A stretch of DNA of 64,000 nucleotides, taken from positions 30,337,350 to 30,401,349 of the forward strand of contig CP099846.1 of assembly GCA_030062745.1 (NCBI GenBank), given 5' to 3'. Shown in pieces: positions 4,884 through 64,000 of this stretch. Position 1 is the first letter of the stretch. The number at the start of each line of letters is the position of its first letter. A model generated the notes under the pieces. It did not search any database. It saw nothing but the letters and a program-made list of their open reading frames with translations, and was not told the origin of the DNA. The position numbers and the translations under genes were made by a program. Source of the DNA: Capitulum mitella. Taxonomy: Eukaryota; Arthropoda; Thecostraca; Pollicipedomorpha; Pollicipedidae.

Positions 4884-5928
4884 TTTACGTCCGTGTATTT
4901 GCGCTTGCACGCATTCGAGCATAACCACATGCATACATTTCCGCTTCTGCTAATTCCACCAATGCATACATTTCCGCCAATAATAATCTGCGTTTACATA
5001 CGAGTACCTTGACATCTATGTACCTTTCCCATACACACACTTACGATCCTTCCATTTTCGCATCTGCACATTCGCCATGCTCAAATTTCCCATCTGTCGT
5101 TTCCTCTTACGTACATTTGTAATACATGTTTACGTACAAATGCTTATGTTTGCCGTGCGATTGTGATCTTCACGTACATACAATTCTCATGGAATCTGCA
5201 GGTTCTCTGTGACGGTATCAACGGCTTTGCTGCTTTTCTTTCGAAGCCAGCCTCGGAGCATTTTCACTTGATCCTTCTCTCTGCCCATGATATGCATGCA
5301 TCTGCATTTCTCTGGTGCGGCGGAAACAAAATCAATCACCGCGCGTTTGCTTTGGTTCTTTATGCTGGTAATGTGACACTGCCGGCAGTCACAGTACAAA
5401 CAGTGCCACGCTTTGAATCAGCGGGTTAGGGAAGCGTTATGCTTCTTCCCGCCTGTGAAACAAACCCTTTCTTTTTTACGGTTATCTCGATGCTACTCTT
5501 ATGTGCCAAGCCAGAACCTGAATTGTATTTGTAATGGCGAACTTAGAAGCAAACTCACTGTGCCCATGCCTGACAATAATTTGGAATGAGTTGTTGGCTT
5601 TGATAATTTGGTTATCTCCCGCTGCTTATTATATATATATACATATATATTACACATATACTTTTTAAATGTTGAGTCTTTGTGCTGGGGCTTTAACTGG
5701 GTGTCAGTTCCTTATCGCCGATAAGTTTGACCGATGCCAAAATTTTGTGCCAAAAAGGGAAAACAAAACGGCCAGCCATTCAGCATGTCATATTTCGCAA
5801 ATCATCACTCCTGTCGTCAGAGTGGACGTCCTGTGCAAGTTATGCAGACAGATGTTTGATGGGAAAGCTAGCTTTTCTGTTTTCCCACTATCGGCATGAT
5901 CTTACCTCCCTTCCCCACCGTGTTGCCC
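4884..5928. other. no gene seen
   Basis: A/T-rich with a TACATTTGTACG-like repeated wording at 4920-5130. No supported frame. Confidence 0.45.
5626..5652. repeat. (TA)n microsatellite
   Basis: Alternating TA with one or two interruptions. Confidence 0.9.
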
Positions 5929-25500: not shown

Positions 25501-28500
25501 AATGTGTCACCGCTGAGAGTCACTGCGTCAGCATTCCTCACAGACTGTGCAACAAACTTTCACTGCAAATAAGCCATAGCTACTTCGTATATCAATCGGC
25601 AAGTTAAATGTCAAACTTGAAACCACACCTCCTTGCGGTAAATTTAGCTTTGCCCGCGCTCATCACCTTGTCCACGCTCCTGCAGAACAGTGCTGCCACC
25701 TGTGACGTCGGAGCGAACGCGATTCGCGCCGCCCTGCGGCCCGGAGTGGCGGAGCACGAGATGGCGCTGGTGGGCACCGGGGCCATGGTTCGCAACATCG
25801 CCCGCCTCTACCCCGACAGCGAACTGATGGACAGTGAGTGAACAGCACCCGCCTGAATGCTGGCCGTGAACCGACAAGCTCGAGCGGATGATCTTGAACC
25901 GGCAGTCAGGCTCGCCCGCCTGGAGTCAAGCACTGAAGCTGAACTGTAAGAAAGCGAATCAAGCTCGGCATTGAGTAAATTCACTGACTGTGGCCATGTA
26001 TAAAAAGGACAGCGACTGTGTGTTACGGTCGTGTTATCCATTCAGGCTCTTGTCAGTTAGCAAGAGCGCAACCAGGATTTTCTTAAAGGGGGGGGGGAGG
26101 TGATGGGGCTCAGTGTGAACTGAAGTCACACGGAAACCGCCTGCTGGGAAGACGATGTGTAATGGTTTTCACCAAAAATGCCGGCCTAGGGGGGGGGGCT
26201 CCCCTTTGGCTGCGCCTGCGCCAGTTAAAGTAAACCCATTTCCTAGAAGTTCCTGAGCCAGTTAAAGTAAACTGATTTCCTAGAAGCTCTCATAAACGGC
26301 CGTTCTTCTAGTAAGTCGTCTATTTGCATTGACGTTAAAGGACCAAGTGGACAGTCGGCGGTTCCACGTAAATGCTAATGTTCAGCGGAAAAATGTCGGC
26401 AGAAGTGGACAACATGTCCTTTCAGCGGGCCGTCTTGTATTTTGGCGCTGACCTAAACTATAATCCGGTTTGTTGCATCGCTGTGTGACAAATATTAAAA
26501 CAAAACAGAAGTGAATAAAGATGATAAAACTTAAGGCTATCCTTTTTCGCCCCCCACATTTTCTTCAATACAACTTCGGTTTTTTTAGTTTTTGCCTTTT
26601 ACGCAGTCGGGACTATTTGCAAAATTTCCCTCGAATTCCTCATTCTTCCAAAAGTGGAAAGTTACGGGAGGGGTAACGAATTTACCAAAAGGCAGGCTGA
26701 AGTCTACAAGAATATGCTGCTTCGTGCTGTTCTGTAATGCCGTTCCAAAACAAATACTGAAAGCATGTTTACCTTCGGTCGTAGCTGAGGTGTCACCGTT
26801 GACTCCTTCGTTACAGCCTGGGTGTGGTTCAACACGGACGTCAACACTGACGGCGCCCACAATCCGAACACGACCCGGACCGTGTCCTGTGGAGATGTTA
26901 TCTCCTGCAACACGTTCTCCATGCCGCAGGGGTACGGCGGGAGGCTGTGGAGACGGCTCTGCCGTCCGCGCGCTGCTGTCCTTCTGAAGTTCCACACTGA
27001 TGCGTGACATTGGTTTGCTCGGTCTGATCGTACACCTGCACATTTGTGCACTGTGTTCGATTCGGCAACAGCAAAGTATTCGTTCTTGAGTGCATGTGTT
27101 CAGCCAAGTGCATAACTAGCTTGGGTGAAAAGCAAAAGGACTACCGTTAAAGTATGGACAGCTAATAGTAGTCCATTTTATAATTACTGAGCATAATTTT
27201 CATTGGTCGAGTTCTCGTGCAAGTCTTACCTTTTTCCTAAATTATTCTCAGATGCGTCTTTTTATTGTAACTTACGTGCTTAGGATTTGGATGTGCCTAT
27301 ATGCTTACAGTTATTCACGAACCTACTTTCCTTGGCTGATTTATACATGTACAACTTCAGTTCTATGCGTGTGATGGCAACAAACGTCAATGTCTTCGTT
27401 CCCAATGTGACAATGGTCACGCGCAGCCTTACACACGATGTTGTCTTCTGCCGAACAGCTATTATACTGGACTGGAGCGCACCATGTTCCTGGGCCACTG
27501 TCCGGACGACTGCCTCGACCTATGGCAGAAGAACGTGCAGATCCACAGGCGCGGTCTCGAGCTTCTCAAGTGAGCGGACGGCTGGAGCCCGGGGGCTCCT
27601 GCTCCGTACTGCGCCGGGGCCGGCCGGGACCATGGCCGGGCCGGCCCCGGCCTAGGCCCCGGCCCCGGGCCCTGGGCCAGGGCCGGGCCGGGACCGGGGC
27701 CTGAGTTAGCAGCTCGCCTGTTGGCCTTGGCTCGACGCTAACGTTTGCCAAAGAGCGCGAATGTCAATCACTGTGTTTGGTTTGTATCACGACGATGGGA
27801 CCGCGTATGTCAGCAACGTCAAAGCTGTACAGATTCTGGAACATCTGAACCTATGATGTATCATTTGGAACGTTATCAATGTCCCCTAATAAATGCTGTG
27901 AAAATTTCTGGGATTGCGGTGCGACATCAGAAATGAATAGGCACCCGGAAAGTGATTAGTTTACGTGAGAAGTGAAAGCTATATTTTCTAATCACATACG
28001 CACAATGAGAGTTTTTTATTGTCACCCACTGTACAGGAGGCCGGGATTTTCGCATATCCGCGCACGGCGTGTTTCCACTGGCCTTCCGCGCTGCCCGCAG
28101 GCCGGGGAGGAAATGCAGCGACGTGGCGCACGAGCTGAACGACCTGTGCGCGCAGCTGGGCGTGCTCAAGTACCGCACGTTCGGCTACGGCCACAGCTTC
28201 GGCGTGCTCTGCCACTACTACGGGCGAGAAGCCGGTAAGATGGGCGCCGCTTCGGCATGATGAAGCCNNNNNNNNNNNNNNNNNNNNNNNNNNNNNNNNN
28301 NNNNNNNNNNNNNNNNNNNNNNNNNNNNNNNNNNNNNNNNNNNNNNNNNNNNNNNNNNNNNNNNNNNNNNNNNNNNNNNNNNNNNNNNNNNNNNNNNNNN
28401 NNNNNNNNNNNNNNNNNNNNNNNNNNNNNNNNNNNNNNNNNNNNNNNNNNNNNNNNNNNNNNNNNNNNNNNNNNNNNNNNNNNNNNNNNNNNNNNNNNNN

Positions 28501-31500
28501 NNNNNNNNNNNNNNNNNNNNNNNNNNNNNNNNNNNNNNNNNNNNNNNNNNNNNNNNNNNNNNNNNNNNNNNNNNNNNNNNNNNNNNNNNNNNNNNNNNNN
28601 NNNNNNNNNNNNNNNNNNNNNNNNNNNNNNNNNNNNNNNNNNNNNNNNNNNNNNNNNNNNNNNNNNNNNNNNNNNNNNNNNNNNNNNNNNNNNNNNNNNN
28701 NNNNNNNNNNNNNNNNNNNNNNNNNNNNNNNNNNNNNNNNNNNNNNNNNNNNNNNNNNNNNNNNNNNGCGGCCCGGAGTGGCGGAGCACGAGATGGCGCT
28801 GGTGGGCACCGGGGCCATGGTTCGCAACATCGCCCGCCTCTACCCCGACAGCGAACTGATGGACAGTGAGTGAACAGCACCCGCCTGAATGCTGGCCGTG
28901 AACCGACAAGCTCGAGCGGATGATCTTGAACCGGCAGCCAGGCTCACCCGCCTGGAGTCAAGCACTGAAGCTGAACTGTAAGAAAGCGAATCAAGCTCGG
29001 CATTGAGTAAATTCACTGACTGTGGCCATGGATAAAAAGGACAGCGACTGTGTGTTACGGTCGTGCTATCCATTCAGGCGCTTGTCAGTTAGCAAGAGCG
29101 CAACCAGGATTTTCTTAAAGGGGGAGGTGATGGGGCTCGGTGTGAACTGAAGTCACACGGAAACCGCCTGCTGGGAAGATGATGTGTAATGGTTTTCACC
29201 AAAAATGCCGGCCTGGGGGGGGGGGGGCGGGCTCCCCTTTGGCTGCGCCTGCTGACGCAGGCGCAACCAAAGTAAACTGACTTCCTAGAAGCTCTCATAA
29301 ACGGCCGTTCTTCTAGTAACTCGTCTATTTGCATTGACGTTAAAGGACCAAGTGGACAGTCGGCGGTTCCCCGTAAATGCTAATGTTCAGCGGAAAAATG
29401 CCGACAGAAGTGGACAACATATCTTTTCAACGGGTCCTCTTGTATTTTGGCGCTGACCTAAACTATAACCCGGTTTGTTGCATCGCCGTGTGACAAATAT
29501 AAAAAAGCAGAACAGAAATGAATAAAGATGATAAAACTTAAGGCTATCCTTTTTCGCCTCCCGCATTTTGTTCAATACAATTTGGTTTTTTTTTATATTT
29601 TGCCTTTTACGCAGTCGGGACTATTTGCAAAATTTCCCTCAAATTCCTCATTCTTTCAAAAGTGGAAAGTTACGGGAGAGGTAACGAATTTACCAAAAGA
29701 CAGGCTGAAGTCTACAAGAATCTGCTGCTTCGTGCTGTTCTGTAATGCCGTTCCAGAACAAATACTGAAAGCATGTTTACCTTCAGTCGTAGCTGAGGTG
29801 TCACCGCTGACTCCTTCGTTACAGCCTGGGTGTGGTTCAACACGGGCATCAACACTGACGGCGCCCACAATCCGAACACGACCCGGACCGTGTCCTGTGG
29901 AGATGTTATCTCCTGCAACACGTTCTCCATGTCGCAGGGGTATGGCGGGAGGCTGTGGAGACGGCTCTGCCGTCCGCGCGCTGCTGTCCTTCTGAAGTTC
30001 CACATTGATGCGTGACAGTGGTTTGCTCGGTCTGATCGTACACCTGCACATTTCTGCACTGTGTTCGATTCGGCAATAGCAAAGTATTCGTTCTTGCGTG
30101 CATGTGTTCAGCCATGTGCATAACCAGCTTGGGTGAAAAGGAAAAGGACTACCGTTAAAGTATGGACAGCTAGTAGTAGTCCATTTTATAATTATTGAAC
30201 ATAATTTTCATTGGTCGAGTAGTCGTGCAAGTCTTACCTCTTTCCTAAATTATTCTCAGATGCGTCTTTTTATTGTAACTCACGTGCTTAGGATTTGGAT
30301 GCGCCTGTATGCTTACAGTTATTCACGAACCTACTTTCCTTGGCTGAGTTATACATGTACAACTTCAGTTCGATGCGTGTGATGGCAACAAACGTCAATG
30401 TCTTCGTTCCCAATGTGACAATGGTCACGCGCAGCCTTGTCTTCTGCCGAACAGCTATTACACTGGACTGGAGCGCACCATGTTCCTGGGCCACTGTCCG
30501 GACGACTGCCTAGACCTATGGCAGAAAAACGTGCAGATCCACAGGCGCGGTCTCGAGCTTCTCAAGTGAGCGGACCACTGGAGCCCGGGGGCTCCTGCTC
30601 CGTGCTGCGCCGGGGCCGGCCGGGGCCTGAGCCGGGCCGGCCCCGGCCCAGGCCCCGGCCCCGGGCTCTGGACTGGGGCTGGGCCAGGGCCGGGCCGGGA
30701 CCGGGGCCTGAGTTAGTAGCTCGCCTGTTGGCCTCGGCTCGACGCTGACGTGGGCCAAAGAGCGCGAATGTCAATCAAGGTGTTTGGTTTGTATCACGAC
30801 GATGGGACCGCGTATGTCAGCAACGTCAAAGCTGTACAGATTCTGGAACATCTGAACCTATGATGTATCATTTGGAACGTTAGCAATGTTTCCTAATAAA
30901 TGCTGTGAAAATTTCTGGGATTGCGGCGCGACATCAGAAATGAATAGGCACCCGGAAAATGATTAGTTTACGTGGAAAGTGAAAGCTATAGTTTCTAAAC
31001 ACATACGCACAATGAAAGTTTTTTATTGTCACCCACTGTACAGGAGCCCGGGATTTTCACATATCCGCGCACTGCGTGTTTCCACTGGCCTTCCGCGCTG
31101 CCCGCAGGCCGGGGAAGAAATGCAGCGACGTGGCGCACGAGCTGAACGACCTGTGCGCGCAGCTGGGCGTGCTCAAGTACCGCACGATCGGCTATGGCCA
31201 CAGCTTCGGCGTGCTCAGCTACTACTACGGGCGAGAGGCCGGTAAGATGGGCGCCGCTTCGGCATGGTGAAGCCGCTCTGAATCGAAAGGGCGTACTAAA
31301 TTCAGGGTAATGGTCGGTGGTGAAGTGGTGCTCGGCTTGGTGCAAAAAGAATCGTGCTCTCGTGCCAATGAAAACCAAGATCCCTGAAAATCGAGTTTCA
31401 TTGTCTGTCTCCAGTTCTTTCCTCCAGTCTCCGGAGAGGTTGAGCTAGATGGGGGCAGAGTTGTCCCGGTCCATTCCTCGGCGCCTGATTCAGTCTTCTC

Positions 31501-33170: not shown

Positions 33171-33464
33171 TAGGCCGGTCGCGGGAAGAGCGAGGGACGG
33201 GAGGAGCCACGGAGCGGCTACTCCTCTCCTCCTTCGGCTCCCAGTTCAGGGAGGAGCTCCCTCTCGTCTCCTGGGTCCTGTCCATCCCTGGGGGTCTCGA
33301 CGCCAAGCCGGGAAATGCAGGCCTCCCCTGCGTCCTCCAAATCGGAGCCGACTCCTGGCGAGTCTGAGGGAGCCTCTGGCCCCCCGACGTCGCGGGCTCG
33401 TTCGCTACTGCGGAGGGGCGGGGGTCTCCGCCGGACGCGCGACCCCGGCCCTAGTAGCCTCTAG
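33171..33464 (+). pseudogene. truncated gag tail of I-clade LINE
   Basis: In the frame ending at TAG 33462-33464, a Ser/Pro-rich tail (SSPPSAPSSGRSS, PTPGESEGASGPPTS) runs directly into the ORF2 frame, as in I-type LINEs where ORF1 ends at or overlaps ORF2. A stop at about 33171 and no zinc knuckles upstream show the gag is 5'-truncated. Confidence 0.45.
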
Positions 33465-36400
33465 TGGTGTCTCGAACTGGCTCTGAATTGCTGCTCCAGT
33501 GGAACACCAATGGATTGGTGGGCCACTGGGCGGAATTCAAAGAATATATCGTCAAAAACAGACCATTAGTTGCCGCCACTCAGGAGACTCATTTTCTTGA
33601 TTCTGACCAGTACAATTTCAATATTTCAGGCTATTCCCTTTACAAATACTGCGTTAATGTAACTCCCCGCCGAGGTGGCATGGCTCTCTCTGTCTCCAGT
33701 TCTCTCTTGCACTCTAGAATCTCCCTCAAAAGCAATCCCCATTTTGTCGCCATCAAAATTCAATTTGCACAGTTCCCCGTCACCTTGCTCTCGCTCTATC
33801 TATCTCCCTCTGAAAGCGCTGTTACCTACCTCTCTCTCTCCACCTTGCTTAACCACATCTCCGCCCCTTGCGTAATTTTGGGTGACTTCAACGCCCATCA
33901 TGCCGCATGGACTTGTCGCATCACAGACACTAGGACCCGGTACACTGAAACGTTTTTACATGACCACAACCTAATATTCCTCAATGACCGGAGCCCCATA
34001 CACGCAACCCCAAGATCACAATCAGCCGTCGACCTCTCTGTTGTTTCCAGTAACATGTCCGCAAAATTTACGTGGCGCGTACAACCGGACAGATACTTTA
34101 GTGATCATTACCCCATACACATCCACCTGCATAATACTTCCTCAGGCCAACACGATTACCACTTCCTACCCAGGTGGAACATTAAACGCGCGAACTGGCC
34201 ACCCTACAACATGCAAATTGACGCTAGTCAGCCTCCAAATTCGACGCCTCCGCTTGCACAGTTTTTGGACACAATTCTTCAAGCAGCACACAACAATATT
34301 CCTCACACCTCACGACCACACGGCCGCAGGCACGCGACTTGGTGGTCGGACACCTGCCAGAAAGCAGTAGCGATCCGGCGCCGAGCCGAGCGAGTTTTTA
34401 GACGATGTGTCTGCGGCCCGCACGAGGAGGCGGCTAGACAGGCACGTACACAGTGCAGGCGCATAATTCTTGCAGAAAAACGCAAATCCTGGGAACGGCA
34501 CAGCAGAGCAGATTCACTCCTCTCACAAAAATCTGGAATCTAGTATGTGCCTTTTCTACGAAATTTTCATCCCCCAGAGCTTTCCCACAACTGACTATTC
34601 AGGGCATGACGTACTCAGAACCGAGCGAGGTCGTGACACAGTTTGCACAGCACTACGCGGCAGTCTCTGCCAACTCACAGTACAACCAAACCACACTTAC
34701 GCACTTACATGCGACACTGCAGGCATGCCATTTCCACTCAGACAACACCGAAGCATACAATCAGCCATTCTCCTTCGCAGAACTCACACACGCCCTCAAC
34801 AGGTGCGGCAACTCTTCGGTAGGACCGGATCAGATTGCATACCCATTTTTGCAAAATCTCTCTGAATTCGGTCAATCACAACTGTTGAGTGCGTTAAATA
34901 AAACCTGGTTAAACGAAGACTTTCCGGCCACCTGGTCTTCCTCTACCATAATTCCTATCCTCAAAGTTGGCAAACCTCCTACTAACCCTGCCAGTTACCG
35001 TCCCATCTCACTCACCAGCTGTGCTTGCAAACTTTTCGAGAAAATGGTCAACGATCGGATTAGAATCTATCTAGAAACAAAAAAAAACATCATCTCTTCT
35101 TACCAAAATGGCTTTCGATCGCGCCGCTCCACGGCCGATAGCCTTCTCCACATCATTCACTCCAACCAAAATGGCTTTTCCCACCGAGAGGCGACGGTTG
35201 CACTGTTTCTGGACCTAAAAGCCGCCTTTGACAAAGTTCACCGTTCTGCCGTCTTAATTAAATTACATCGCGCCGGAATTCGTGGCCGAGCAGCTAAATT
35301 CATCTCTAACTTTCTTCGCTTAAGAACATTCACAGTGCATTGCGGCAACGTCCACTCCCCTTCTACCCTTCAGGAGCAGGGCTTGCCGAAAGGCAACGTA
35401 CTTTCCCCTACTTTATTCCTCCTCATGGTCAATGATGTCCCGGACGATCTCCCAACCACACCCCCCGGCCTCAAATATTCACTCTACGCTGACGACATAG
35501 CGGTGTAGTTCACCCACCCTAGCGTCGACCGCGCCAATACATTTGTGCAGCTTGCACTTGATTCTATCCACAAATGGTGCAACCGATGGGGCTTGCAGGT
35601 TTCTGTTGCTAAATCAGCCACGGTAATTTTTTCACACTTTCTCCGTGACATACAACCTGTAACCCCTTTGCGTCTCAGAGGCGAATACATCCCTGTCCAC
35701 ACTCATTTCAAATATTTAGGCATCACATTGGATCGCAAACTCACATTCAGCGCCCACGCTGCCGACCTACGACAACGCTATCTTGGCCGCCTTAACATTT
35801 CACAATGTATTTCAGGACAGAACTGGGGGGCCGACAGGCGCACCCTCCTGCGTCTCTACATAGCTCTAATTCGATCGATCCTAGAATATAATGCGTTTCT
35901 TTTTGACAATATCTCTTCTTCCCTTGCTTCGGTTCTGGAGGCCATCCAGAACCGAGCACTTCGAGTCACCACTGGTGCCTTTGCTGCGTTTTCGTGCGAG
36001 AATCTCCGGGCCGAAGTTGGCATTCCTTCTCTCGCACATAGGCAAGCACTTCTCCTCATGAAATACTCCATTCGAGTCCATACCACCCATAATCACCCCA
36101 TAATCACCCATCACAACACATTCTGACTCACAATCGGTGCAGACCACGACGGAACACCCACTGCATCGCGCAGCAATTGAAAAACGTCATAAACACGTCG
36201 GGCTTCCGCTTAATCCCTTGCCACTCAACTCCAACTCCTGGCAATCATTGGACTTATCGTAACCTTGATATTAGATATCTTTTCACTGAGAACAAAATTC
36301 TGTCACCCCCACGGAAACACTCCAAACCTTCATTGAATTTAGAGCAAAACTCCTGGACTACATCTTCTTGTACACTGATGGTTCTCGCACTCCTCAAGCT

Positions 36401-37195
36401 ACGGGAGCAGCATTCATAGGAGGCCGGGCCCGTCTCTCTATTCGGCTTTCAAAATTTCACTCCTCCTTCACTGCGGAAATTCGGGCCTTGCTTGCCGCCT
36501 TGAATCATTTCAAAAGCAAAAAATGACAGCGAGCCGTCATCTGCACGGACTCTCAATCAGCACTCCAATCGCTACACCGACTACACAACATTACACGCCC
36601 AGACACCCACGAACTAGTGCAGACACAATACACTTCCTGACAACACTCACCTCATTTTCCTGTGGGTGCCGGGGCATAGCTGCATCCCTGGAAACGACGT
36701 AGCCGACGCCCTGGCTAAACAGACGCACCACTTACCCAATCATGACAGCGACCCAGTGCCTTGCTCAGACTTACTTGTCCTCGTCGCCTCAAAATTTAAA
36801 CAATACATACAAAGGCACTGGGACACTCATGCACCCTTCTACATGCACCCCATCAAATTGGAATTTACATACTGGGAAACTTCCAATCAAAACACTCGTC
36901 AGAAGGAAGCTGACCTGTCTCGCCTCCGCATCGGTCACACCCGTTTCACACACTCGTACATCTTCGATGGACTCGGACCCACCCAATGCCACGCTTGCCA
37001 CACACGTTACAACATCGAACATTTTCTCATACACTGCCCCAGATATGCCACACACCGACTTCCTCTCATCGCCTATGTGCGAGATAAACATATCCCCCTG
37101 GGGCTGCCCACTCTGCTAGAAAACGATCACCCTGACCTCATCAAGCCTGTCTTTTCTTTCCTCGAGAAAACGGGCTTAATCAATTTTATCTAGTT
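33464..37195 (+). pseudogene. I-clade LINE ORF2: endonuclease, reverse transcriptase, RNase H (decayed)
   Basis: An apurinic-type endonuclease comes first (33464-~34500: QWNTNGL, TQETH, LGDFNAHHAAW, SDHYP). After a frameshift near 34500 comes reverse transcriptase (~34500-35508 and on to 36126). Its motifs are SYRPISLTSC, FLDLKAAFDKV, QGLPKGNVLSP and YADDIAV. A TAG at 35506-35508 directly follows the YADD motif. Next is an RNase H domain (YTDGS 36371, AEIRALLAAL, CTDSQSAL) with stops at 36524 and near 36636. A last frame (36666-37193) holds PGHSCIPGNDVADAL and the LSRLRIGHTRFTHS...C-C-H-C tail. There are at least three frameshifts and three stops, so the copy cannot make an active protein. 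RNase H after RT, with this C-terminal motif, is typical of the I clade. Confidence 0.9.
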
Positions 37196-44486: not shown

Positions 44487-44911
44487 TATGACTTCATGAT
44501 CTAAGCCCAAGGCCAAAAGCCACGGGTCAGGTCACCGATGCAGAATAATGATAGTGTGACTAGCTGTAATTTGGCACGGCCTCCGGTGAAAACTACCCAT
44601 CGGTTCCACCGACGCTGCGCTTCATTTCTATCCCCCATATTTCATCCCAGGACCACAGGCCACCGGTCAGCTCTCCGAGGCGGACTCAGAACATCGTCAC
44701 TGTCCACCCCTCTGTGCTATTTGGAGTGGAATTTGTCTGTAATTCCGTTCCCGGTGGCATTTCCTTATTTTGGTCTTCCTTTTGAGACAAGGCCAAAGGT
44801 CACGAGTCACGTTTTTAATGCGGACTGATGATGGTGTCACTAGTCGTCTTTTAGCATGATTTCCAGTGAAAAGCACCCTGCAGTTTGGTCGCTGCAACGT
44901 TTCATTACTTG
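44487..44911 (+). repeat. ~144-bp degenerate tandem repeat, units a-c
   Basis: The units share AAGGYCAAAGGTCACGRGTCAG-type openings near 44511, 44649 and 44793, a GGACT...GATGG/TCGTCACT middle and a TTTGGCATG...GTGAAAAC end. Spacing is 138 and 144 bases. Confidence 0.6.
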
Positions 44912-46268
44912 CACCGGCGCAGCCAAAGGGGGGGGGGGCCGCGTTTTTTGTGAAAACAATTGCACTTTGTCTCCCCAGGGGCGGTTTTCGTATGATTTCT
45001 GTTCACACTGAACTCCAGCTCTCCTTAACCCTATTCCCGGCAGCGGGGGGCTGAATCCGCCCCCCTCGGTTTTTTTGCTTGCCAATTCCTAGGCTTTTTA
45101 ACGCAGCTTCACGAAACTTGGTCACTTTTCCTAGCTATTCTTTCTACGCGCTGTGACAAAATTTCACATTTCTACTTTGCTCAGGAGCGGAGCCAGGCAA
45201 CGTTTTTGGGAGGCACCTCAGGTCATTTTTGGCTTTGTTGAGGGTAAAAGAAAAATGTCTGCCAAAAACAGATTTTTAAAGATAGAACTTAAAACTTGAT
45301 ATGGATGTATAGCTAAATAGTTGGGCAATGTGCACACAAAATTTTGTTTATCTCAGGTCACTTTACAAGGTCAAGTCAAGGTCAAAAGTCAAAATTTGTT
45401 TTTTTGCAATAATTTCGGCGCCGTTTTTTTTAAATGCCAAACCCGGAATATATGTCACGTAGAAGGATGCCCTCTACTTGTGTACTAAGTTTCAGCTTGA
45501 TATCAGGTCGGGTCGCGAAGATATGACCTAAAATGTCAGTGCGCGAACCCTATATCGCAATAGCCATAAAATGAAATTTTTGAAATAGAGTAAATTCAAA
45601 TGATTGAAAACGTTCACAGATAACATTAAATGCACACGAGACCATTCCAAGTGACCCAAAGGTCACTGGAGGTCATTCAAGGTCAAAGGTCACAAGTTGG
45701 TCTGAAGAACGTGTGACCATGACAGTTCCCCCTTTTTCATGTCCCTGGCACCGCCTATGCTAACATTATACAAGCATTGTAATGCGATTTGTACTTCTTT
45801 AGCATAGCATGACTAGCAGAAGCCAAAAAAGTGTTTTTACCTTTTTTGTTCATTCAGTTGTTAGAAAACTAATCCTCCTATTTTTGAAACCCTGTGAACG
45901 CCCATGAATTTTCTGAAAATTTTAAATTTTGTGGACCCATGGTAAAAGCCCTATCCATAATCTCTCGATTCATGCCAGTTTCATTGAAATCGGTCCACAA
46001 ACAAGGGAGTTATAAGAAGTCCAAAAGTACCCCCCATTTTGACATTTTTGCCCCCCTGTATCCACAAATTTCGAAATTTTGAAAATTTCTTTTTATAAAA
46101 ATGTAGTTCACGTGACGGTAAATCGATTGCCGTTTGTTGCAATGAAATCGGACGAGTAGTTCTCGAGATCTCAGGGGGGAGGGCCGAATCCGCCCCCCCC
46201 TGCCGGGAATCGACCATACCGTCTAGCCCTCCGGGAATAGGGTTAAGAAAATCCTGGTAGCGCCGCTG
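44912..46268 (+). mobile_element. hAT-like MITE carrying a nested TTAA element
   Basis: Ends are CACCGGCGCAGCCAAAGG and, inverted, CAGCGGCGCTACCAGG. Flanks ATTACTTG (44904-44911) and ATGACTTG (46269-46276) match 7/8 as an 8-bp duplication. Without the nested 1214-bp element it is the same short repeat as 26061-26220. Confidence 0.7.
45029..46242 (+). mobile_element. piggyBac-like TTAA MITE family 1, copy 1
   Basis: A 1214-bp element bounded by TTAA (45025-45028 and 46243-46246). Ends are CCCTATTCCCGG and its inverse complement. A second inverted pair, based on ATTCCCGGCAGGGGG, lies just inside. No coding frame. TTAA duplication plus CCC-initial ends is the hallmark of piggyBac transposition. 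It sits inside a hAT-like repeat whose empty form is in the creatinase introns. It carries a perfect AGGTCAAAGGTCA at 45680-45692. Confidence 0.85.
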
Positions 46269-46276
46269 ATGACTTG

Positions 46277-46400
46277 CATGTCATATTTCATCCTGGGGTT
46301 AAAGGTCACACGTCAGGTCACTCAGACGGACTCAAGATATCGCCACTATTCATTATTTAGTGCTGCTTTTGAGTGAAAGCCGCCTGCAGCCTACTAGCCC
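46277..46400 (+). repeat. ~144-bp degenerate tandem repeat, unit d
   Basis: GGTTAAAGGTCACACGTCAGGT... and GACGGACTCAAGATATC match unit b. Removing the nested hAT-like insertion places it about 150 bases after unit c, in register. Confidence 0.6.
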
Positions 46401-46790
46401 GCCCCCGACTTGGGGGGTTGGTTGACCGCTCCCTGAGGTCTCCAGGATTGCGAAAAAACGAACAAACGCAACCTACGAAACTTCGTGTAACTTTTGCTTT
46501 CATTTTTACATCTTGTGTCAAAGATTTTTACCTCAGGTAAAGCCAGGTGTCTGACCTAGGTCAACTCAAGTGAACCCATGTTCAAGAAGATTTAGCGCCC
46601 TCTAACTTTTTCGGAAAACATGATATCAAAATAAAACCTTGAGGAGTTAGAGATCTTGAAAGAGGAAACAAATCATCTTCTATCTCAGATTTTTCGGAAT
46701 TTTCCGGGTCATTGACCTCAGGTAAACTATTTCCAAGACATGTCGTCGTTTCTTTCGGAAACTGAAGGCATTTTTCGTAACATTTTTAGT
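46385..46790 (+). repeat. dispersed repeat R3, copy 2
   Basis: The partner of 1-440. It contains the palindrome TGACCTAGGTCA (46552-46563) in the same place as copy 1. Confidence 0.75.
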
Positions 46791-46815
46791 GTGGGATAGT
46801 GCAGACATCCAGTTA

Positions 46816-46877
46816 ACGTCAATGGTTTTCCCATTGACGTATCAATGACTTCCAGTTATTGACCTGAGATCAGGTCA
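46816..46877. other. two short inverted repeats next to R3
   Basis: ACGTCAATGG/CCATTGACGT (46816-46825, 46831-46840) and TGACCTGAGATCAGGTCA (46860-46877), the latter an everted pair of AGGTCA half-sites. Confidence 0.6.
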
Positions 46878-47884
46878 AGAATAATTGTTATGAGTCAAAA
46901 TGCACCGCCGTCAGAATCGACGATGAATTGCTCAGAACGGGTAGAAATTGGCAGAACTGGCTCGCACAGTTGCAAGTAATACTAGAAAGTTGAAAAAATA
47001 AGATAAAAATTGCATATTTTGGACATAAACAGGCTCTCGCGAATAAAGCTACGCCAATTGTGTAAACGGATAACTAATTAATTTTCTCAAATTTAAACAT
47101 GATAAACCATCACCAGAACCACTAGCATTAACAAATATCACACGAAAAGGTATGTGTCGCGAAAATAAAGAAACGCTAAAATTCGTTCCCGTTAATTTCA
47201 TACCGCGTTCGGGTGCGGCGCCTGCCGGTAGTCGGCCGCGGAAATCACCATGTCTTGAACGCAATGTTTCGGCTTATAGACTGGACAAACCAGAGAAATT
47301 CGACGTGTATTGGAATCTGCGGAATTTTTTCCTGTTCTTTTGGTGCCTTTACCTAGACTTTATTAATTACAGCCCTTGAGATACAGGCTACTTGTAGGTT
47401 TTATGCAGTCGGCTGTGAAAAATCATATATATGGAATAAATGGCTTACAGATTATCCAAAACTAAAAATAAGACCAGGTTTGAGCTCTACTTGTCACGAG
47501 CTTTCCAACCGTGTGCAAATTTTTACCGTGCGACCAATCGTTCGTGAGTTAGAGGGAGGCAGCCAATCCTCCCTCCCCCAGTCGAGCGTGATCGGTGTGG
47601 ACCGCCAGTCGGGCGCGGGTTAGCTATCGTTTCGCTTGACTTCCGGAGAAAACTACGAAGCGGTTTGGTCGTTAATGCGTTCCAATACTGTTACCCCATA
47701 TTTCATGCCAAACTCAGATTTTAAATGGTCACCGAGGGCTAAAATTCGGCTTAAAACGGTTTAGATCACCAAGACAGGCTCAAAAATCGTCTAATCATTG
47801 ATTTGGTGCTGCTTTGGATTCACTCATTGCCCGCATTCATTTCAGCACGGCCTGAAAGTCGCGATGCGGTTGCGTTCTCCGTAC
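46878..47884. other. no gene seen
   Basis: One weak unit of the ~144-bp repeat near 47690-47830. Otherwise no recognised feature. Confidence 0.4.
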
Positions 47885-48035
47885 CTCCAAGATTCGTACT
47901 TCCGGTGATCCAAGGTCGAAGGTCACGGGTTACGTCACCGACATAAAGTGATGGCAATGCTACTGGCTATCCTTTGGCATGACTTGCGGTGCAAACTGCC
48001 GGTCAGTTTGGTCGCTCCTGCGCTGTAGTGCTTAA
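47885..48035 (+). repeat. dispersed unit of the ~144-bp repeat
   Basis: CAAGGTCGAAGGTCACGGGT, the TTTGGCATGACTTGCGGTGC phrase and CAGTTTGGTCGCT match units a and c. A poorer match lies at about 47690-47830. Confidence 0.55.
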
Positions 48036-48039
48036 TCCG

Positions 48040-48400
48040 ATTTCTGTGTGGGGAAGGGGGTGGGTTTTAGAAGCCCTCCATTCAGTTTTTTGCTAGCCAT
48101 TCCTAGGTATTTTGAAGCAGTGTCACGAAACTTGGCCACTCTTCCTGTCGATTCTTCTATTTTTCTTACGTACTACGTATAACTTTTGTAACTGTGCTAT
48201 CCTTGGGCGGAGCCAGGCTACGCATTTGGAGAGCACCTCAGATATTTTTGGGCACTGATGAGGGTAAGAGAAAAATGGCTTCCAAAACTAAAGTTTCTAA
48301 GAGGTAACTTAGAACTTTGTATGCTCGTATAGGTATAATTGGCCAAACCTACAGCAAAATATTTGTTTATCTGAATCACTTAATACGGTCATGTCAAGAA
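48040..48400 (+). mobile_element. older relative of TTAA family 1, left part
   Basis: It includes GCGGAGCCAGGCTACG, GAGGGTAAGAG and TTTGTTTATCTGA phrases in the same order as family 1, with many changes. The terminal TTAA/CCCTATT is not recognisable. Confidence 0.55.
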
Positions 48401-48404
48401 GGGA

Positions 48405-48520
48405 GTACCGGATATCCGTTCAGGCCTGATATACAGCCGGTTGTTGGAGATTATGTAGTATCCGGCATCCGGCCAGATATTTCTGTGATCCGGCTGGATA
48501 CTGTCGGATATTTAAACTTC
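48405..48520. repeat. degenerate ATCCGG-rich stretch
   Basis: GGATATCCG, TATCCGGCATCCGG and GATCCGGCTGGATA recur within about 110 bases, a short imperfect repeat between the older relative and copy 2. Confidence 0.4.
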
Positions 48521-48685
48521 CCGGTGTACGATGAAGGCATTGTTCTGTGTGTTTACGAAATCATTTTAGGAGCAATGTGCCTTGTCGATGTCGATGTAAC
48601 TCACAGTTCCAAGATCTAATTGGAGCATTACTTTTTCTGTTTAGTCTAGGAGGGTTGACATATGTTCCGCAAGGTTGGGACTTAA

Positions 48686-49887
48686 CCCTATTCCCGGCAG
48701 GGGGGGGGGCTGAATCGGCTCCCCTCGGGTTTTTTGCTTGCCAATTCCAGGCTTTTTAACGCAGCTTCACGAAACTTGGTCACTTTTCCTAGCTTTTCTT
48801 TCTGTGTGCCGTGACAAAATTTCAAAATTCTTTTTTTGCTCAGGGGCGGAGCCAGGCAACGTTTTTGGGAGGCACCTTAGGCCATTTTGGCCATGTTGAG
48901 GGGAAAAGGAGAATGTATGCCAAAAACAGCGTTTTTAAGATATAACTTTAAACTTTATATGGATGAATAACTCAATAGTTGGACAATGTGCAGATATGAT
49001 TTTGTTTATCTGAGGTCACTTTACAAGGTCAAAAGTCAAAATTTGTTTTTTTGTAATAATTTCGGCGCTGTTTTTTTTTGAAATGCCAAACCCGGAATAT
49101 ATATGACGTCGAAGAGTGCCCTCTGCTTGTGTACCGAGTTTCAGCTTGATATCAGGTCGGGTCACGGAGCTATGACCTAAAATGTCAGTGCGAGTACCCT
49201 ATATCACAATAGACATAAAATGAAATTTTTGAAATAAAGTGAATTCAAATGATTGAAAACGTTTACAGATAATATTAAACGCACACGAGATCATTCCAAG
49301 TGGCTCTAAGGTCACTGGAGGTCATTTAAGGCCAAAGGTCACAAGTTGATCTGAAGGACGTATGACCTTGACAGGTTCCCCTTTTTATGTCCCTGGCATC
49401 GCCTATGCTAATATTATACAAACATTGTGATGCGATTTGCACTTCTTTAGCATAGCATGACTAGCAAAAGCCAAAAGTGTTTTTGCCTCTTTTGTTCATT
49501 CAGTTGTTAGAAAACTAATCCTCGTATTTTTGAAACCCTGTGAACGCTCATGATTTTTTTTCTTCAAAATTTCAGATTTGTTTACCAATGGTAAAAGTCC
49601 TATTCATAATCTCTCGATTCATGCCAGTTTCATCGAAATCGATCCATAAACAAGGGATACATAAAAGTCCAAAATTTACCCCTGATTTTGATATTTTTGC
49701 CCCCTGTATCCACACATTTCAAAATTTTAAAAACTCCTTTTTATAAAAATGTAGTTCACGTCATGGCAAATCGATTATCGTTTGTTGCGATGAAATCGGA
49801 TGTGTGGTTCTCGAGATCTCGGGGGGCCGAATCCGCCCCCCCCCCTGCCGGGAGTCGACCATACCGTGTAGCCCTCCGGGAATAGGG
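48686..49887 (+). mobile_element. piggyBac-like TTAA MITE family 1, copy 2
   Basis: A 1202-bp element with TTAA at 48682-48685 and 49888-49891 and the same 12-bp ends as copy 1. It aligns with copy 1 along its whole length. It appears to interrupt an older relative whose parts lie at 48040-48400 and 50290-50860. Confidence 0.85.
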
Positions 49888-50289
49888 TTAAGCTCAAAGC
49901 TGTGAAACAGAAGCAACCATTTACTCATCATCCCATCTGCGGTGCATTACCCTCCCATTTTTTTCAAACATTTTTTTCCTCTTTCCTAAATACTCTGGGA
50001 CAAATGCATTAAGGGACATGATACTGCAATAACTTCAGTGTTCGTCTCATCAATCCAAGTCTTTTAGTTGCACCGAGGTGCTATGATGACATTCCGCATA
50101 CTCTGGAGCCTTTACCTGCCGTGAGAGATGGTGAGCTTCGCTGTGATCGTGGTCTTCTTTGTTTCGTTTTTTTTTCACAATGAACCTGGAGAAACCTCAC
50201 AATAACTGTAATCACGAGGCCTTCCTTTTCCTTTTCAGTTCAGTCTTTTTGTGTTCCTTTTTTCAGTAAAAAAAAGCTAATAAAGGTAA

Positions 50290-50860
50290 ACAAGGACATC
50301 CCGTGCTTGCTACTTGCGTGTCAAGTTTTAGGTCAATATCAGGTTGGGTAAAGGACGTACGATGTGAAATGTACGCGCGCGTACCCTATATGACGACGGT
50401 CAGAAAAAGGCATTTCAGAAATATAGTCGCTTTGAATCGCTGAAGACGTTTTAAACGTTATGAAATGAACCTAGGGTCATTCTATGTGACAGAGGTCATT
50501 TCAGGTCATTTGAGGTCAAATGTCGTAAGCTGACTTGATGGACATACAATCATGACAGTTTCCCCTTCTTCTGGCCCCTGACGCTGCTAATGGCAACATT
50601 ACACAAACACTGCAATATGATTTGTACTTCTGAAGTGTAGAATGAGTAATAAAACCCGCATGATTATTTTGGACTTTTATGTTAATTTGGTTTCCCAAAT
50701 AAATATTCCCTCTATTTTTCAAGCCCTGTGAACGAGTAGGAATTTTCTCAAAATCCCAAACATGGACGGAAAAAGTTCCATCGACTAGTTATCGATTCAT
50801 GCTGCATCAAAATAGGTCAATAAACGTCAAAGTTATAATGCATACACATACCACCCTTTC
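50290..50860 (+). mobile_element. older relative of TTAA family 1, right part
   Basis: Collinear with the second half of family 1: the TCAATATCAGGTTGGGT, CAGGTCATTTGAGGTCAAA and AAGCCCTGTGAACG phrases appear in family order. The right terminus is not found. Confidence 0.55.
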
Positions 50861-51732
50861 TGGCTTTGCTGCCCTCCCCCACCCCAAGCCCTTCCTTTCT
50901 GCCTCCTGGGTCAGATCATCGGAGTGGACTGGCTGAAAACTAGCCGCATTAGCATTCCCCATTCAGTCCTTTCGATGACGTCATGAAATACAGACGTGAT
51001 CTATCGGCGCAGAGTCTTTCCATTGCGTCCGCCTGCCTTGTGCTGCCAATCCCAATTTAAGGCCACTGCCACTGCCAGACCTCAGCCACAATCCAGCAAA
51101 AGTGGAAATATTTTGGCATGCAGGGTATTACAAACATCAACAGAAAGGTCCAATCACTGCAAAATCCAATCCTTTCACGAGGGCTTTTGTTTTTTTTTTA
51201 GCATTCCAAATTGCCTCATCAAGTACTGCTGTCAAAGTCAATCTCCGGAGAGATGTGATAACGAATATGACCTTAATAACTCCTATCATTTGTGGCAACA
51301 ACTTCTTTTCACAATTTGCAAGCATACAACACTTTAAGAGCGCAGAAACCACGACGCAACCGGACCCCCGCACAACATCACAAACAACCGGTGCCAGTGG
51401 CCGCTGGATTGTCTACGTTGGCTCCGAGCGACTCGCTCCCAGTGACGTCACTGCGGACTTGTTACTAGCAAAAAAGGTTTTCCATGGCCAATAACACTGG
51501 AGACACCCCTGGGTGCTCCCATGCTCCTGCTAACACACCAACAGACAACAAGAAGTACATTACACATTCATGAGGACATTGCAAATCAAAATGACATCTT
51601 TCATCACATGGGTGGAACCTCCATATGGTGCTGCCAAGCCAATACCAATAATTCCGAGACTTAGCATTAGGCACATGGTCAGGGCTCCGTCACATCACTT
51701 TGATTGGGGGATATAGCAAAGGTGGCCTCAGA
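50861..51732. other. no gene recognised
   Basis: Open frames of up to 130 codons overlap on both strands at 50996-51494. None shows a known motif or convincing splice sites. Confidence 0.35.
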
Positions 51733-57167: not shown

Positions 57168-59448
57168 TATCTGTCACATCAACTGAGCGCCACGCAATGG
57201 CGGTGGCCAGTCACTGAAAAGGAAGTCTACGCCATCGTTTACAGCATTCAGAAGCTGAGACTATTTTCTGGACTCAAAACTCACCGTCATGCGTGATCAC
57301 AAACTCTGGAACATATTTTTAGAACGAGGTGAGAAATGCGCAAATTCAGCGATGGGCCATCATTCTCGACGCATATGGCTGCGATGTCCAGTACATCTCT
57401 AGCAAGCAAAATATTGTTGCTGACATTCTTCCTTGGCTCGAGCCTCCTTCAGAGGCGAACGTCATCGACTCCGACCGAGCACCAAGGGTGCAGTTGGACT
57501 CCCAAGTGGAGAATGCCCCGAAGATGAGGCTAACCATCAGGACAAATTCCAAGAGTTCCTGTCGAACAATCCCGACTTTTTGTCTGCAGGAAAACGATAC
57601 GGATAGCAGGGCGAATCATGACATTCTTGAGGATGCAGAGCATCCAAATTTTAGTGAGGTCTCCCTGCATTATACGGTGTAGTACGATTTACTGTTTCGC
57701 ATCTTGGGCATTCAAAAGTGCATCCCATTTTCTGGCCTGCAGTTGGTCATTCCTCGCATTTTTCAAAAATCTCTCATCGAAGAAATCCATTCAGAATATT
57801 TTGGTGGACATCCAGGCATAGACAAAACGTATGATAAACTTCGTTCGCTTTGTTATTGGTCTGGCATAGTATCAAGACGTAGTTCATTACCAGAAAACCT
57901 GCGTAGCTTGCAACATGCGAAAACTGCGTAGAGAACGACCCCCGCTTCAAGACATGAAATTCCATAATATTCTTTGGAAATCATTGCTATAGACACATGT
58001 GGACCATTTCCTCAAAGATATAATGGCAACCGATGCATCATTAACGTAATCGACATGTTTTCTAGGTGGCTTGAGTCGTTTGCCACCGAATCGAAAAGTG
58101 CCGAGACCGTAGCCCGAATTCTCATAGAGCACATCATTCCGCGTCATGCCTGTCCTACGTTAATGTGTCTGACAACGGAGCCGAATTCTGTAACATAGTC
58201 GTGGAGCAAATTTCTTAAGTCTTCACCATCAGACATATTCGCACTTCAGCTGAGCATCCTCAAGCGAACGGAAAATGTGCGCGATACAGTCGCGTTAAAA
58301 ATGACATGCTTGCAGAACTAGTTAGTCGCTCCCAAAGAGACTAGGATACCAAAACCCCGGGATTATTTCTGCTTACAGAACAACTAGGAACGATAATACC
58401 AAATTAAGTACATTCTTTGTCATGTATGATCGTGATTCTGTTCTCCCCATGGATATACTTCTCTCTCCCAAATTCAGGTATCAAGCAAATGAGTACGTCC
58501 CCACAATGCTGGAAAACCTTCATCGCTCATATCACCAAGTGCGGCATAATCTGGCTTTAAACCACGAGAAAAAAGAAACAAATTGTGTTACAGAAGACGA
58601 AGTCTTCTGTAACACAATTGTAATTGTAACAAAAAAAAAAAACAAATTGCAGAAGGCGAAGTCTGCCAAAATTCAAACTGGAGACATGGTTTATTTTAGA
58701 GACCCTTCTGTTACTGCGAACTCTTCATCAGAACTCACTTCTCACTGGAAACCTTTCGTCGAGTCCTAAAACCTATCACTGATGTCACTTGCCTGATTAA
58801 AAATCAGCTTACGGGAGAAACAAAAACAGTCAACGTCCAAAATCTGCGCTGAGCTGATCCTGGCACTCCGTGGCAGAACGTGTCAAACGAGCCTAGTCAT
58901 ATCAGTCGAAAATTCGAAAGGATGCGAAAATCACTCATTCCCCTCCGCGTTCCGCCGCCGAGACAGATTTCTCTATGATGAGACTTCCTTTGAACGAACG
59001 GATCAACTGCCGCCTGTAGTATCACTTCCGAGTCGTAATTCGGTTCCCAGTAGTCAAAATCCTCCAAATACCAAAAGTCGTACATCAGAATGTCCAAGTG
59101 TCAACGATGAGGAAGATATCCCTCTGACAGAACTTTCCCGTCGTCTGAAAGATGAAGAGGAGAACATGCCTCTTGCCGAATAGGCAGAACAGTTTAGGAA
59201 CGACAACGAACTGAAACCAACAAGAAGACCTCGCACAGAATCAGATTCTGAAGACGAGACATCCGGTGCAAAATACTCGCTAGATGTATACGAAAAAGAA
59301 TGGGAGAGGAATGTTCGGACGAAGGATGTCCGCCTGATAAAATCATGCGTCACGATTCCGACACAGAAGGGTCAGATAATGATGTAGTTCAGACATGTGG
59401 TGCACCAAAGGCAGATAACAAAACGGATGATAGTAAGATAGGCCTGTT
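57168..59448 (+). pseudogene. Ty3/gypsy-like pol fossil (RNase H end and integrase)
   Basis: Fragments in pol order but in several frames. RNase H end (~57180-57480: WPVTEKEVYAIVYSIQKL, then QRWAIILDAYGCDVQY and a decayed ADILPWLEP). H2C2 zinc finger of integrase (~57740-57950: HSEYFGGHPGIDKTYDKL). Integrase core (57974-58198: AIDTCGPFP, NVIDMFSRWLES). C-terminal part (58422-58769: YDRDSVLPMD, YHQVRHNL, DMVYFRD). An acidic tail (~59100-59448) with SDSEDE-type runs. Reverse transcriptase, gag and LTRs are not seen. Multiple stops and frame changes make it inactive. It is split by the TTAA MITE at 59452 and resumes at 60651. Confidence 0.8.
58581..58619. other. perfect 18-bp hairpin in the gypsy-like fossil
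   Basis: Arms 58581-58598 and 58602-58619 around GAA. A weaker copy of the arm (CAAATTGCAGAAGGCGAAG) follows near 58643, so the hairpin probably arose by a local inverted duplication. Confidence 0.8.
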
Positions 59449-59451
59449 TAA

Positions 59452-60646
59452 CCCTATTCTCGGCAGGGGGGCTGAATCCCCCCCGGGTTTTTTGCTTGCC
59501 AATTTCAGGCTTTTTAAACGCAGCTTTACGAAACTTGGTCACCTTTCCTAGCTATTCTTTCTACGTGCTGTGACAAAATTTCACAATTCTATTTTGCTCA
59601 GGAGCGGAGCCAGGCAACGTTTTGGGGGCACCTCAAGCCATTTTTGACCATGTTGAGGGTAAAAGGAAAATGTCTGCCAAAAACAGAGTTTTTAAGATAG
59701 AACTTAAAACTTTATATGGATGTATAGCTAAATAGTTGGGCAATGTGCACACAAAATTTTGTTTATCTCAGGTCACTTTACAAGGCCAGGTCAAGGTCAA
59801 AAGTCAATTTTTTTTTGCAATAATTTCGGCGCCTTTTTTCAAATGCCAAACCCGGAAAACATATGACGTAGAACGGTGCCCTCTACTTGTGTATCAAGTT
59901 TCAGCTTGATATCACGTCGGGTCACGGAGCTATGACCTAAAATGTCAGTGCGCGAACCCTATATCGCAATAGCCATAAAATGAAATTTTTGGAATAGAGT
60001 GAATTCAAATGATTGAAAACGTTTACAGATAATATCAAATGCACACGAGATCATTCCAGATAACCCCAAGGTCACTGGAGGTCATTTAAGGTCAAAGGTT
60101 ACAAGTTGATCTGAAGAACGTGTGACCATGACAGTTCCCCCTTTTTCATGTCCCTGGCACCGCCTATGCTAACATTTTACAAACATTGTAATGGGATTTT
60201 TACTTCTTTAGCATAGCATGACTAGCAGAAACCAAAAAAGTGTTTTTACCTTTTTTATTCATTCAGTTGTTAGAAAGCTAATCCTCCTATTTTTGAAACC
60301 CTGTGAACGCCCATAAATTTTCTCAAAATTTCAGATTTGTGGACCTATGGTAAAAGCGCTATCCATAATCTCTCGATTCATGCCAGTTTCATTGAAATCG
60401 GTCCATAAACAACGGAGTTATAAGAAGTCCAAAAGTACCCCCCATTTTGACATTTTTGCTCCCTGTGTCCACAAATTTTGACATTTTGAAAATTCCTTTT
60501 TATAAAAATGTAGTTCACGTGACGGCAAATCGATTGCCGTTTGTTGCGATGAAATCGGACGAGTAGTTCTCGAGATCTCGGGGGGGGGGCAAATCCGCCC
60601 CCCCTGCCGGGAATCGACCATACCGTCTAGCCCTCCGGGAATAGGG
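59452..60646 (+). mobile_element. piggyBac-like TTAA MITE family 1, copy 3
   Basis: A 1195-bp element. The left flank is TTAA (59448-59451), the right flank ATAA (60647-60650, one change). Left terminus CCCTATTCTCGG, right terminus intact. It is inserted in the tail of the gypsy-like fossil. Confidence 0.82.
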
Positions 60647-60650
60647 ATAA

Positions 60651-61139: not shown

Positions 61140-62040
61140 CACACATCCCAAATACAGCCGTGCAAAGAAACGCCACCTATCTTGTCTACGGGGAAAGTCA
61201 TAAACAATGGAAAAAATCATGTCTATGAGACGGCCTATACGATTTTCTTCGAAATAGGCACAACGAACAATCGACCCATGCCCATCAATTAACCTGAAGA
61301 AAACGCTATGGGCCATTGAAATCTAGGGGGTCAAAACGCCCTAAGAAAGTTTCAAAATGGGATTTGTAGCTAAAAAACAACACGAATAGGTTGCGTTGCA
61401 TATCAGATTAAGCACTCGTTAATCCAGATACAACCGTGCAAAGGAAAACCACGTACCTTGTCCAGGGGAACAGTTATAAAAACGATCGAAAAAATCATGT
61501 CTACGGAGTGGCCGCTATGATTTTCTTCAGCATTGGCACAACAAACCGTTGACCGATGCCAATTAATCCCGCTGAAGAAATCGTACGGGCCGTAGAAATT
61601 TAGGGGGTCAGACCCACTAGGAAACTTCCAAAGCGGGTTTTGTATCTCAAAAACGACACGCATAGGTCGAATAACCTTTCAAATGAAAGCACTCGTTAAC
61701 CCAAATACAGCCGTGCAAAAAAACATCTACCTTGTCTGAGGGGAAAGTTATAGACGATAAAAAAAGTATGTCTATGGGGTGGCCCGTGCGATTTTCTTCA
61801 AAATTGGCACAACGAACAGTTGATTGATGCCCATTAATCTGGCTGAAGAAACCCTACGGACCATTGAAACTTAGGGAGTCAGAACCCCCTTGGAAACTTG
61901 CAAAACGGGTTTTGTAGCTCAAATAACACCACGCACAGGACGAGTTGCATATCAAATGAAATCACTCCTTAACCCAAAAACAACCTTAAAAAATCGCCTA
62001 CCTTACCTAAGGGGAAAGTAATAGATGATTGTTTTTCGTG
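61140..62040 (+). repeat. ~274-bp tandem repeat, 3.3 units
   Basis: The unit opening (GCACWC..TTAACCCAAATACAGCCGT-like) occurs at 61140, 61412, 61689 and 61962, giving periods of 272, 277 and 273. Each unit contains CTACCTTGTC, ATGTCTATG, CGATTTTCTTC and AACTTAGGG phrases. Divergence between units is moderate. The fourth unit breaks off near 62040. Confidence 0.85.
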
Positions 62041-62919: not shown

Positions 62920-62923
62920 TTAA

Positions 62924-64000
62924 CCCTATTCCCCGGAGGGCTAGACGGTATGGTCGATTCCCGGCAGGGGGTCGGATTCGGCCCCCCCCCCCGAGATCTC
63001 GAGAACTACTCGTCCGATTTCATTGCAACAAACGGCAATCGATTCGCCGTGACGTGAACAACATATTTATGAGGAGAAATTTTCAAAATTTCGAAATTTG
63101 TTGATACAGGGAGGCAAAAGTGTCAAAATGGGGTACTTTTGGACTTCTTATAACTCCGTTGTTTATCGACCGATTTCAATGGAGCTGGCATGAATCGAGA
63201 GATTATGGATAGCGCTTTTACCATGGGTCCACAAATTTGAGATTTTGAGAAAATTAATGTGCTTTCACAGGGGTTCAAAAATAGGAGGATTAGTTTTCTA
63301 ACAACTGAATGAACAAACAAGGTAAAATCAATTTTTTGGCTTCTGCTAGTCATGCTATGCTAAAAAAGTACAAATCGCATTACAATGTTTGTATAATGTT
63401 AGCATAGGCGGTGTCAGGGACATGAAAAAGGGGGAACTGTCATGGTCACACGTTCTTCAGATCAACATGTGGCCTTTCACCTTAAATGAGCCCCAGTGAC
63501 CTTGGGATCACCTGGAATGATGTCGTGTGCATTTGATATTATCTGTAAACGTTTTCAATCATTTAAATTCATTCTATTCCAAAAGTTTCATTTTATGGCT
63601 ATTGCGATATACGGTACGCCCACTGACATTCTAGGTCATAGCTCCGTGAACCGACCAGATATCAAGCTGAAGCTTGGTACACAAGTAGAGGGCATCATTC
63701 TACGTCATACATATTCCGGGTTTGACATTTGAAAAAATGTCGCCGAAATTATTGCAAAAAAATAAATTTTGATTTTTGACCTTGACCTGGCCTACTAAAG
63801 TGACCTCAGATAAACAAAATTTTGTGTGCACATTGCCCAACTATTTAGCTTTATATCCATATAAAGTTCTAAGTTCTATCTTAAAAACTCTGTTTTTGGC
63901 AGACATTTTCCTTTTACCCTGAACATGGCCAAAAATGGCCTGAAGTGCCTCCCAAAAACGTTGCCTGGCTCCGCTCCTGAGCAAAGTAGAATTGTGAAAT
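62924..64000 (-). mobile_element. piggyBac-like TTAA MITE family 1, copy 4 (inverted, cut by window end)
   Basis: TTAA at 62920-62923, then CCCTATTCCCCGGAGGG, which is the right end of the family read in reverse. It runs collinear with copies 1-3 in the opposite direction until the window stops, so its other end is not visible. Confidence 0.82.

Follow-up and report, generated by a model that had tools for sequence, protein, structure and literature searches.

A very abundant 1.2-kb non-coding transposon family, probably of the piggyBac kind, in the genome of Capitulum mitella

The window, i.e. the whole 64-kb stretch of Capitulum mitella DNA that was analysed (G000:C8:30337350-30401349), has a G+C content of 47.8% and belongs to an assembly of 477,042,490 bases in 16 contigs. 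It contains the creatinase gene named in the initial annotation (Creatinase_N at 25104-25481, E 2.9e-5) and a non-LTR retrotransposon with endonuclease and reverse transcriptase domains (33458-37193). A 461-aa frame at 12164-13549, for which no Pfam match was found, includes a 42-bp minisatellite of 15 copies with 97% match (12813-13451). Near the end of the window lie members of a 1.2-kb family (Table 1), three of them complete and one cut by the edge. Their pairwise identity is 87-93% in the alignment, which bears out the four copies reported at first. The end sequence, the coordinates and the TTAA flanks given for copy 1 are also correct as annotated: the 12-bp inverted ends CCCTATTCCCGG are perfect and set between two TTAAs (45025-45040 and 46231-46246 with the TTAAs included). 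The end 16-mer is present, with at most 3 mismatches, at 7 places in the window, compared to a mean of 0.45 in shuffled sequences, and none of 100 shuffles reached 7. Copies 3 and 4 are separated by a 271-bp unit in tandem (61147-62023, 3.2 copies).

Table 1. Features of the 1.2-kb family and of its target sites, in window coordinates
Feature	Position	Strand	Remark
Copy 1, both TTAAs counted	45025..46246	+	1222 nt
Left terminal inverted repeat CCCTATTCCCGG, copy 1	45029..45040	+	
Left subterminal G/C palindrome, copy 1	45044..45066	.	centre at bp 27 from the tip; 9/11 arm pairs
Right subterminal G/C palindrome, copy 1	46177..46199	.	centre at bp 55 from the tip; 9/11 arm pairs
Second tip motif ATTCCCGG, right end bp 33-40, copy 1	46203..46210	-	
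Right terminal inverted repeat CCCTATTCCCGG, copy 1	46231..46242	-	
Copy 2	48682..49891	+	1210 nt
Copy 3	59448..60650	+	1203 nt; ATAA (mutated) in place of the right TTAA
Copy 4	62920..64000	-	runs off the window edge; left end outside the window
Unoccupied relative of the copy 1 target repeat, one TTAA	26061..26220	-	
Second unoccupied relative	29091..29250	-	probably the first locus again, as its other haplotype
Larger dispersed repeat with separate insertions of copies 1 and 2	44757..50264	+	L115 and L116 alignments

The exact boundaries of the insertions are seen from unoccupied target sites. The repeat in the creatinase intron aligns across the junction of the joined flanks of copy 1 with one TTAA, scoring 145 and 130 at the two sites, and the highest score in 300 shuffles (first site only) was 39. 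The initial annotation had regarded these as two empty sites. The one-TTAA alignment stands, but the two sites are probably a single locus assembled twice: the segments 25736-28267 and 28768-31274, about 2.5 kb each and 94-96% identical, both stop exactly at a 500-N gap (28268-28767). They are the ends of two contigs and probably represent two haplotypes of one locus lying side by side in the assembly. Since the match stops exactly at both gap edges, we counted the creatinase sites as one empty site.

The proof from empty sites is nevertheless stronger than first reported. Some loci have the targets of both copy 1 and copy 2 at a distance of about 2.5 kb, and in this way two paralogs of the larger dispersed repeat, L115 and L116, were found. 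They cover window positions 44757-50035 and 44818-50264, respectively, and both lack copies 1 and 2. The alignments break exactly at single TTAAs, in other words the 4-nt overlaps are TTAA. About 97 extra nt at 46389 are a further difference. L115 has a family member of its own at a position that reads TTCA in the window and TTTA in L116, where there is no insertion. The count of filled and empty sites proposed at the outset gives the same picture among the scored matches. When the joined flanks of copy 2 (224 nt) were searched and 40 of 425 candidates scored, 37 of the 38 non-self matches cross the junction; the copy 2 locus itself matches as halves 1-94 and 91-224, with TTAA as the overlap, and of the matches fetched, 9 of 10 have one TTAA. 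For copy 1 (40 of 750 candidates scored) all 39 non-self matches cross the junction. One further candidate (L114) was rejected, as it matches one half only of the copy 2 target and does not represent a family insertion. Likewise, the unoccupied paralogs of L026 and L027 are contiguous, but their TTAA is not kept and they were therefore left out of the clean sites.

The family is present in thousands of copies. The sequence TTAACCCTATTCCCGG occurs at 13,225 places in the genome (6,640 + 6,585), and its reversed control at none. Pairing was studied on the first 100 exact ends listed, all from the first 5.2 Mb of contig C1. They form 37 pairs, all 1172-1246 bp long, and 26 single ends. Among the 20 single ends that were read, 16 match the family over at least 1160 nt, the other end being mutated or missing. 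The remaining 4 (L029, L030, L037 and L046) match over 156 to ~500 nt, and then each diverges at another place. Provided that this sample is typical of the genome, with 63 elements per 100 exact ends, extrapolation gives about 8,000 copies, or about 2% of the 477-Mb assembly. TTAA targeting was checked with a 24-mer of the right end that had been picked without the TTAA: it occurs at 5,118 places, and TTAA lies outside it in 4,728 (92.4%), i.e. copies lacking the flank are a small minority. The 20 complete copies fetched from the genome and the 3 window copies are on average 90.5% identical to each other in pairwise comparison and 87-97% identical to their consensus of ~1.21 kb; the fetched copies were selected by intact TTAA ends and the sample is thus biased to well-kept copies. 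Their flanks differ. Among these 23 copies, a pyrimidine directly precedes the left TTAA in 18, and a purine directly follows the right TTAA in 21.

The two ends of the element are not built alike. In the consensus the left end consists of the tip CCCTATTCCCGG followed by a G/C palindrome centred at bp 27 (11/11 arm pairs). The right end has the same tip, then 20 unique nucleotides, a repeat of ATTCCCGG at bp 33-40 and a palindrome centred at bp 54 (10/11), so that the sequence of the left end recurs on the right end 27-28 bp deeper. The best offset between the ends is 27 (26/36 identical) and the next best 28 (24/36). Neither the two palindromes nor the offset match was attained in 2000 letter shuffles with the first 12 bp fixed. 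In the individual copies, exact ATTCCCGGCA is present on the right end at bp 33 in 19/23 and on the left end at bp 5 in 22/23. The palindrome is displaced by a few bp depending on how long the G runs are, and a left palindrome was not found in L017 and L018. A self-match of L014 in this comparison was attributed to the flank of this copy and discarded.

Stop-to-stop frames in the consensus reach at most 75 aa, compared to a mean of 86 aa for the longest frame in 200 shuffles, i.e. the element is non-coding. The label MITE in the initial annotation is appropriate in part: the family is non-coding, has inverted ends and a high copy number and is uniform in length, but with ~1.21 kb it lacks the small size. 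MITEs usually measure a few hundred bp. Larger ones are mentioned in PMC3849761.

The end anatomy can be compared to that of known piggyBac elements, whose inverted ends are 12-19 bp long and start with CC[C/T]T (PMC2872659). In the piggyBac of Trichoplusia ni the cysteine-rich-domain palindrome occupies bp 17-33 of the left end. On the right end, a duplicated segment and an insertion of 17 bp make bp 34-63 a near match of left-end bp 7-35 (PMC7351741). The 1.2-kb family shares with this system (LE35/RE63) the TTAA, the CCC tips, the duplicated segment and a palindrome that lies close to the tip at one end but 27-28 bp deeper at the other, with nearly equal distances in both systems, as the ends are described in that paper. 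It differs from it in the G/C-rich palindrome, the tip sequence and the lack of a transposase gene. The asymmetric layout is not universal in piggyBac: the palindrome bound by piggyBat is an unrelated one and is missing from its right end (PMC11707139), and the two resident families described below lack the layout as well. The CMITE/AmiPB elements of Acropora corals resemble our family in the TTAA, the non-coding sequence, the tips (AmiPB1 CCCTTTCCCGTCC, AmiPB4 CCCATTCCCTGCCACA) and a filled/empty allele pair, but the CMITEs are ~100 bp long and family I has a matching autonomous element (PMC2872659). The mPok elements of Daphnia Pokey are likewise large piggyBac MITEs (~750 bp) with TTAA and 12-16 bp ends; there, however, the autonomous Pokey is known, and 60 mPok in the assembled scaffolds are reported (PMC3849761) versus thousands of copies here. 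No match to the tip CCCTATTCCCGG was found in the literature searched.

No piggyBac transposase (PF13843) was found in the 64-kb window, in agreement with the initial annotation, and the genome has at least 118 matches to this domain (116 of 267 candidates scored). The best 30 matches fall into family A (14), family B (15) and a separate one (L067); another 20 matches comprise 10 from A or B and 10 from other lineages. Family A is ~2.9 kb long with TTAA-CCCATTAACGCCCAG tips and family B is ~2.67 kb long with TTAA-CCC[A/T]TTAGTGCCCA tips, and both encode transposases. Among solved transposases piggyBat is the best match of both families and T. ni piggyBac the second, whereas L067 matches piggyBat only. 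The search for full-length piggyBac elements with the family ends, suggested at the outset, did find full-length TTAA-CCC families; CCCTATTCCCGG ends enclosing a transposase were not found in the flanks of the 35 of 118 matches that were read (30 loci with 1.5 kb on each side, 4 wider regions and 1 more). As none of the piggyBac elements read has such ends, the mover of the 1.2-kb family is still something that we infer.

Several family sequences do lie near transposases (L057, L064, L071 and L099), and these are separate copies or diverged relatives of the 1.2-kb family. L057 was rejected as an autonomous partner, because there family B sits inside a diverged relative of the 1.2-kb family. 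At L064, family B directly adjoins the right end of a family copy. The locus L099 (C14:11182000-11188900) has a broken piggyBac transposase from a different lineage between two complete copies that point the same way and have TTAAs of their own, the whole spanning 5.5 kb; the second copy has one tip base altered per end.

The preceding observations allow the possible origins of the family to be weighed. The notion that larger duplications carried the four copies along, and that they did not transpose themselves, has next to no probability. Copies 1 and 2 do share one larger dispersed repeat, but both are missing from its paralogs, with exact junctions at TTAA, L115 contains a family member at a place without insertion in the window and in L116, and the 20 fetched copies have differing flanks; the exact empty sites contradict this reading. 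It is almost as improbable that the family is a deletion derivative of a P-element-like transposon that adjoins its right end in L030. There, 156 nt of the right end lead straight into an open reading frame with a TNP-like_RNaseH_C domain (PF21789, E 9.9e-13) and with the C-terminus facing the tip. This P-element-type domain has 41 matches in the genome, which belong to a P-element-like transposase family of near-identical copies. In all 10 other copies read, however, the gene continues at the corresponding place without the CCCTATTCCCGG end, and the three copies that were followed to the end of homology have CCATGG/CCATGA...TACCTACTACTGG ends with no TTAA, i.e. their ends are not those of the 1.2-kb family. 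The 10 copies without the family end, together with the ends that the P-like elements have of their own, indicate that two truncated elements meet in L030, and the P-like gene was rejected as a partner. No partner from another superfamily with the family ends was found among the 20 single ends read. Three of the four odd single ends (L029, L037 and L046) have unexplained interiors beyond their 156 to ~500 nt, with no Pfam match in the scanned frames (8 of 10 frames, theirs and two of L030). One copy of the P-like gene (L121) has a left end of the 1.2-kb family at a TTAA, and the 9 other copies read have the TTAA and are unoccupied.

Another superfamily that duplicates TTAA, above all Kolobok, deserves somewhat more attention but is still quite improbable. 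TTAA duplication by itself is common to Kolobok, the T2-MITEs share with our family the TTAA target and abundant non-autonomous copies (PMC6004289), and the flanks of 35 of the 118 piggyBac matches revealed no autonomous partner. On the other hand, the Kolobok tips described in PMC6004289 are purine-purine (AG; AGGRR in T2-MITEs), in contrast to the CCCT of the 1.2-kb family. A piggyBac-type element that is moved today by resident family A or B, despite different tips, is a less remote reading, though an unlikely one. The two families are piggyBac by sequence, abundant, present in the same genome and share the TTAA-CCC tips. Unlike the 1.2-kb family they encode transposases, their tips diverge after CCC, and their ends have no palindrome/offset layout.

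We consider the 1.2-kb family most probably a non-autonomous, non-coding DNA transposon of the piggyBac superfamily that is moved in trans by a piggyBac-type transposase. It has the TTAA target duplication, a perfect 12-bp inverted repeat starting with CCCT and asymmetric subterminal palindromes. Together with the resident piggyBac transposases, these traits support the piggyBac-related movers suggested in the initial annotation. The transposase would recognise the CCCTATTCCCGG tips together with the G/C palindrome, the latter near the tip on the left and ~27-28 bp deeper on the right, beside the repeated tip motif, and its C-terminal domain may be the part that binds the palindromes. The element would be excised, presumably seamlessly, and then inserted at a TTAA, which is duplicated. 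The failure to find a transposase with these ends in the flanks of 35 of the 118 matches, the other ends of families A and B and the different interiors of 4 of the 20 single ends read speak against this reading. The family as such is new and very abundant, whereas its kind is well known.

The agreement of the end geometry with T. ni piggyBac could be a matter of chance, given that the true piggyBac families A and B have no such layout. We tentatively suggest, as a possibility that we do not favour strongly, that the family keeps a T. ni-type end code without a transposase of its own and with an unrelated G/C palindrome. In this case the piggyBac synapse would conserve the spacing and not the sequence of the palindrome, and the transposases that read it would form a lineage distinct from A and B. 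The thousands of natural ends and the exact filled and empty sites make it possible to test whether piggyBac palindromes have a conserved spacing but no constraint on their sequence.

The surroundings of the window copies are themselves composite. The target of copy 1 is a putative hAT-like repeat flanked by the near-identical 8-mers ATTACTTG and ATGACTTG; target duplications of 8 bp are a hAT trait. This target (44788-44911 and 46276-46365) interrupts a further repeat that has an uninterrupted relative at 44508-44701, resulting in a nest of three layers. Within copy 1, CAGGAGCGGAGCCAGG at ~45182 and inverted CATAGGCGGTGCCAGG at ~45759 enclose the middle part and resemble worn hAT ends, without matching 8-bp flanks. 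Finally, 48039-48404 and 50310-50870 are parts of an old relative of the 1.2-kb family, ~70-75% identical to it, that belongs to the larger dispersed repeat and is split by other DNA containing copy 2.
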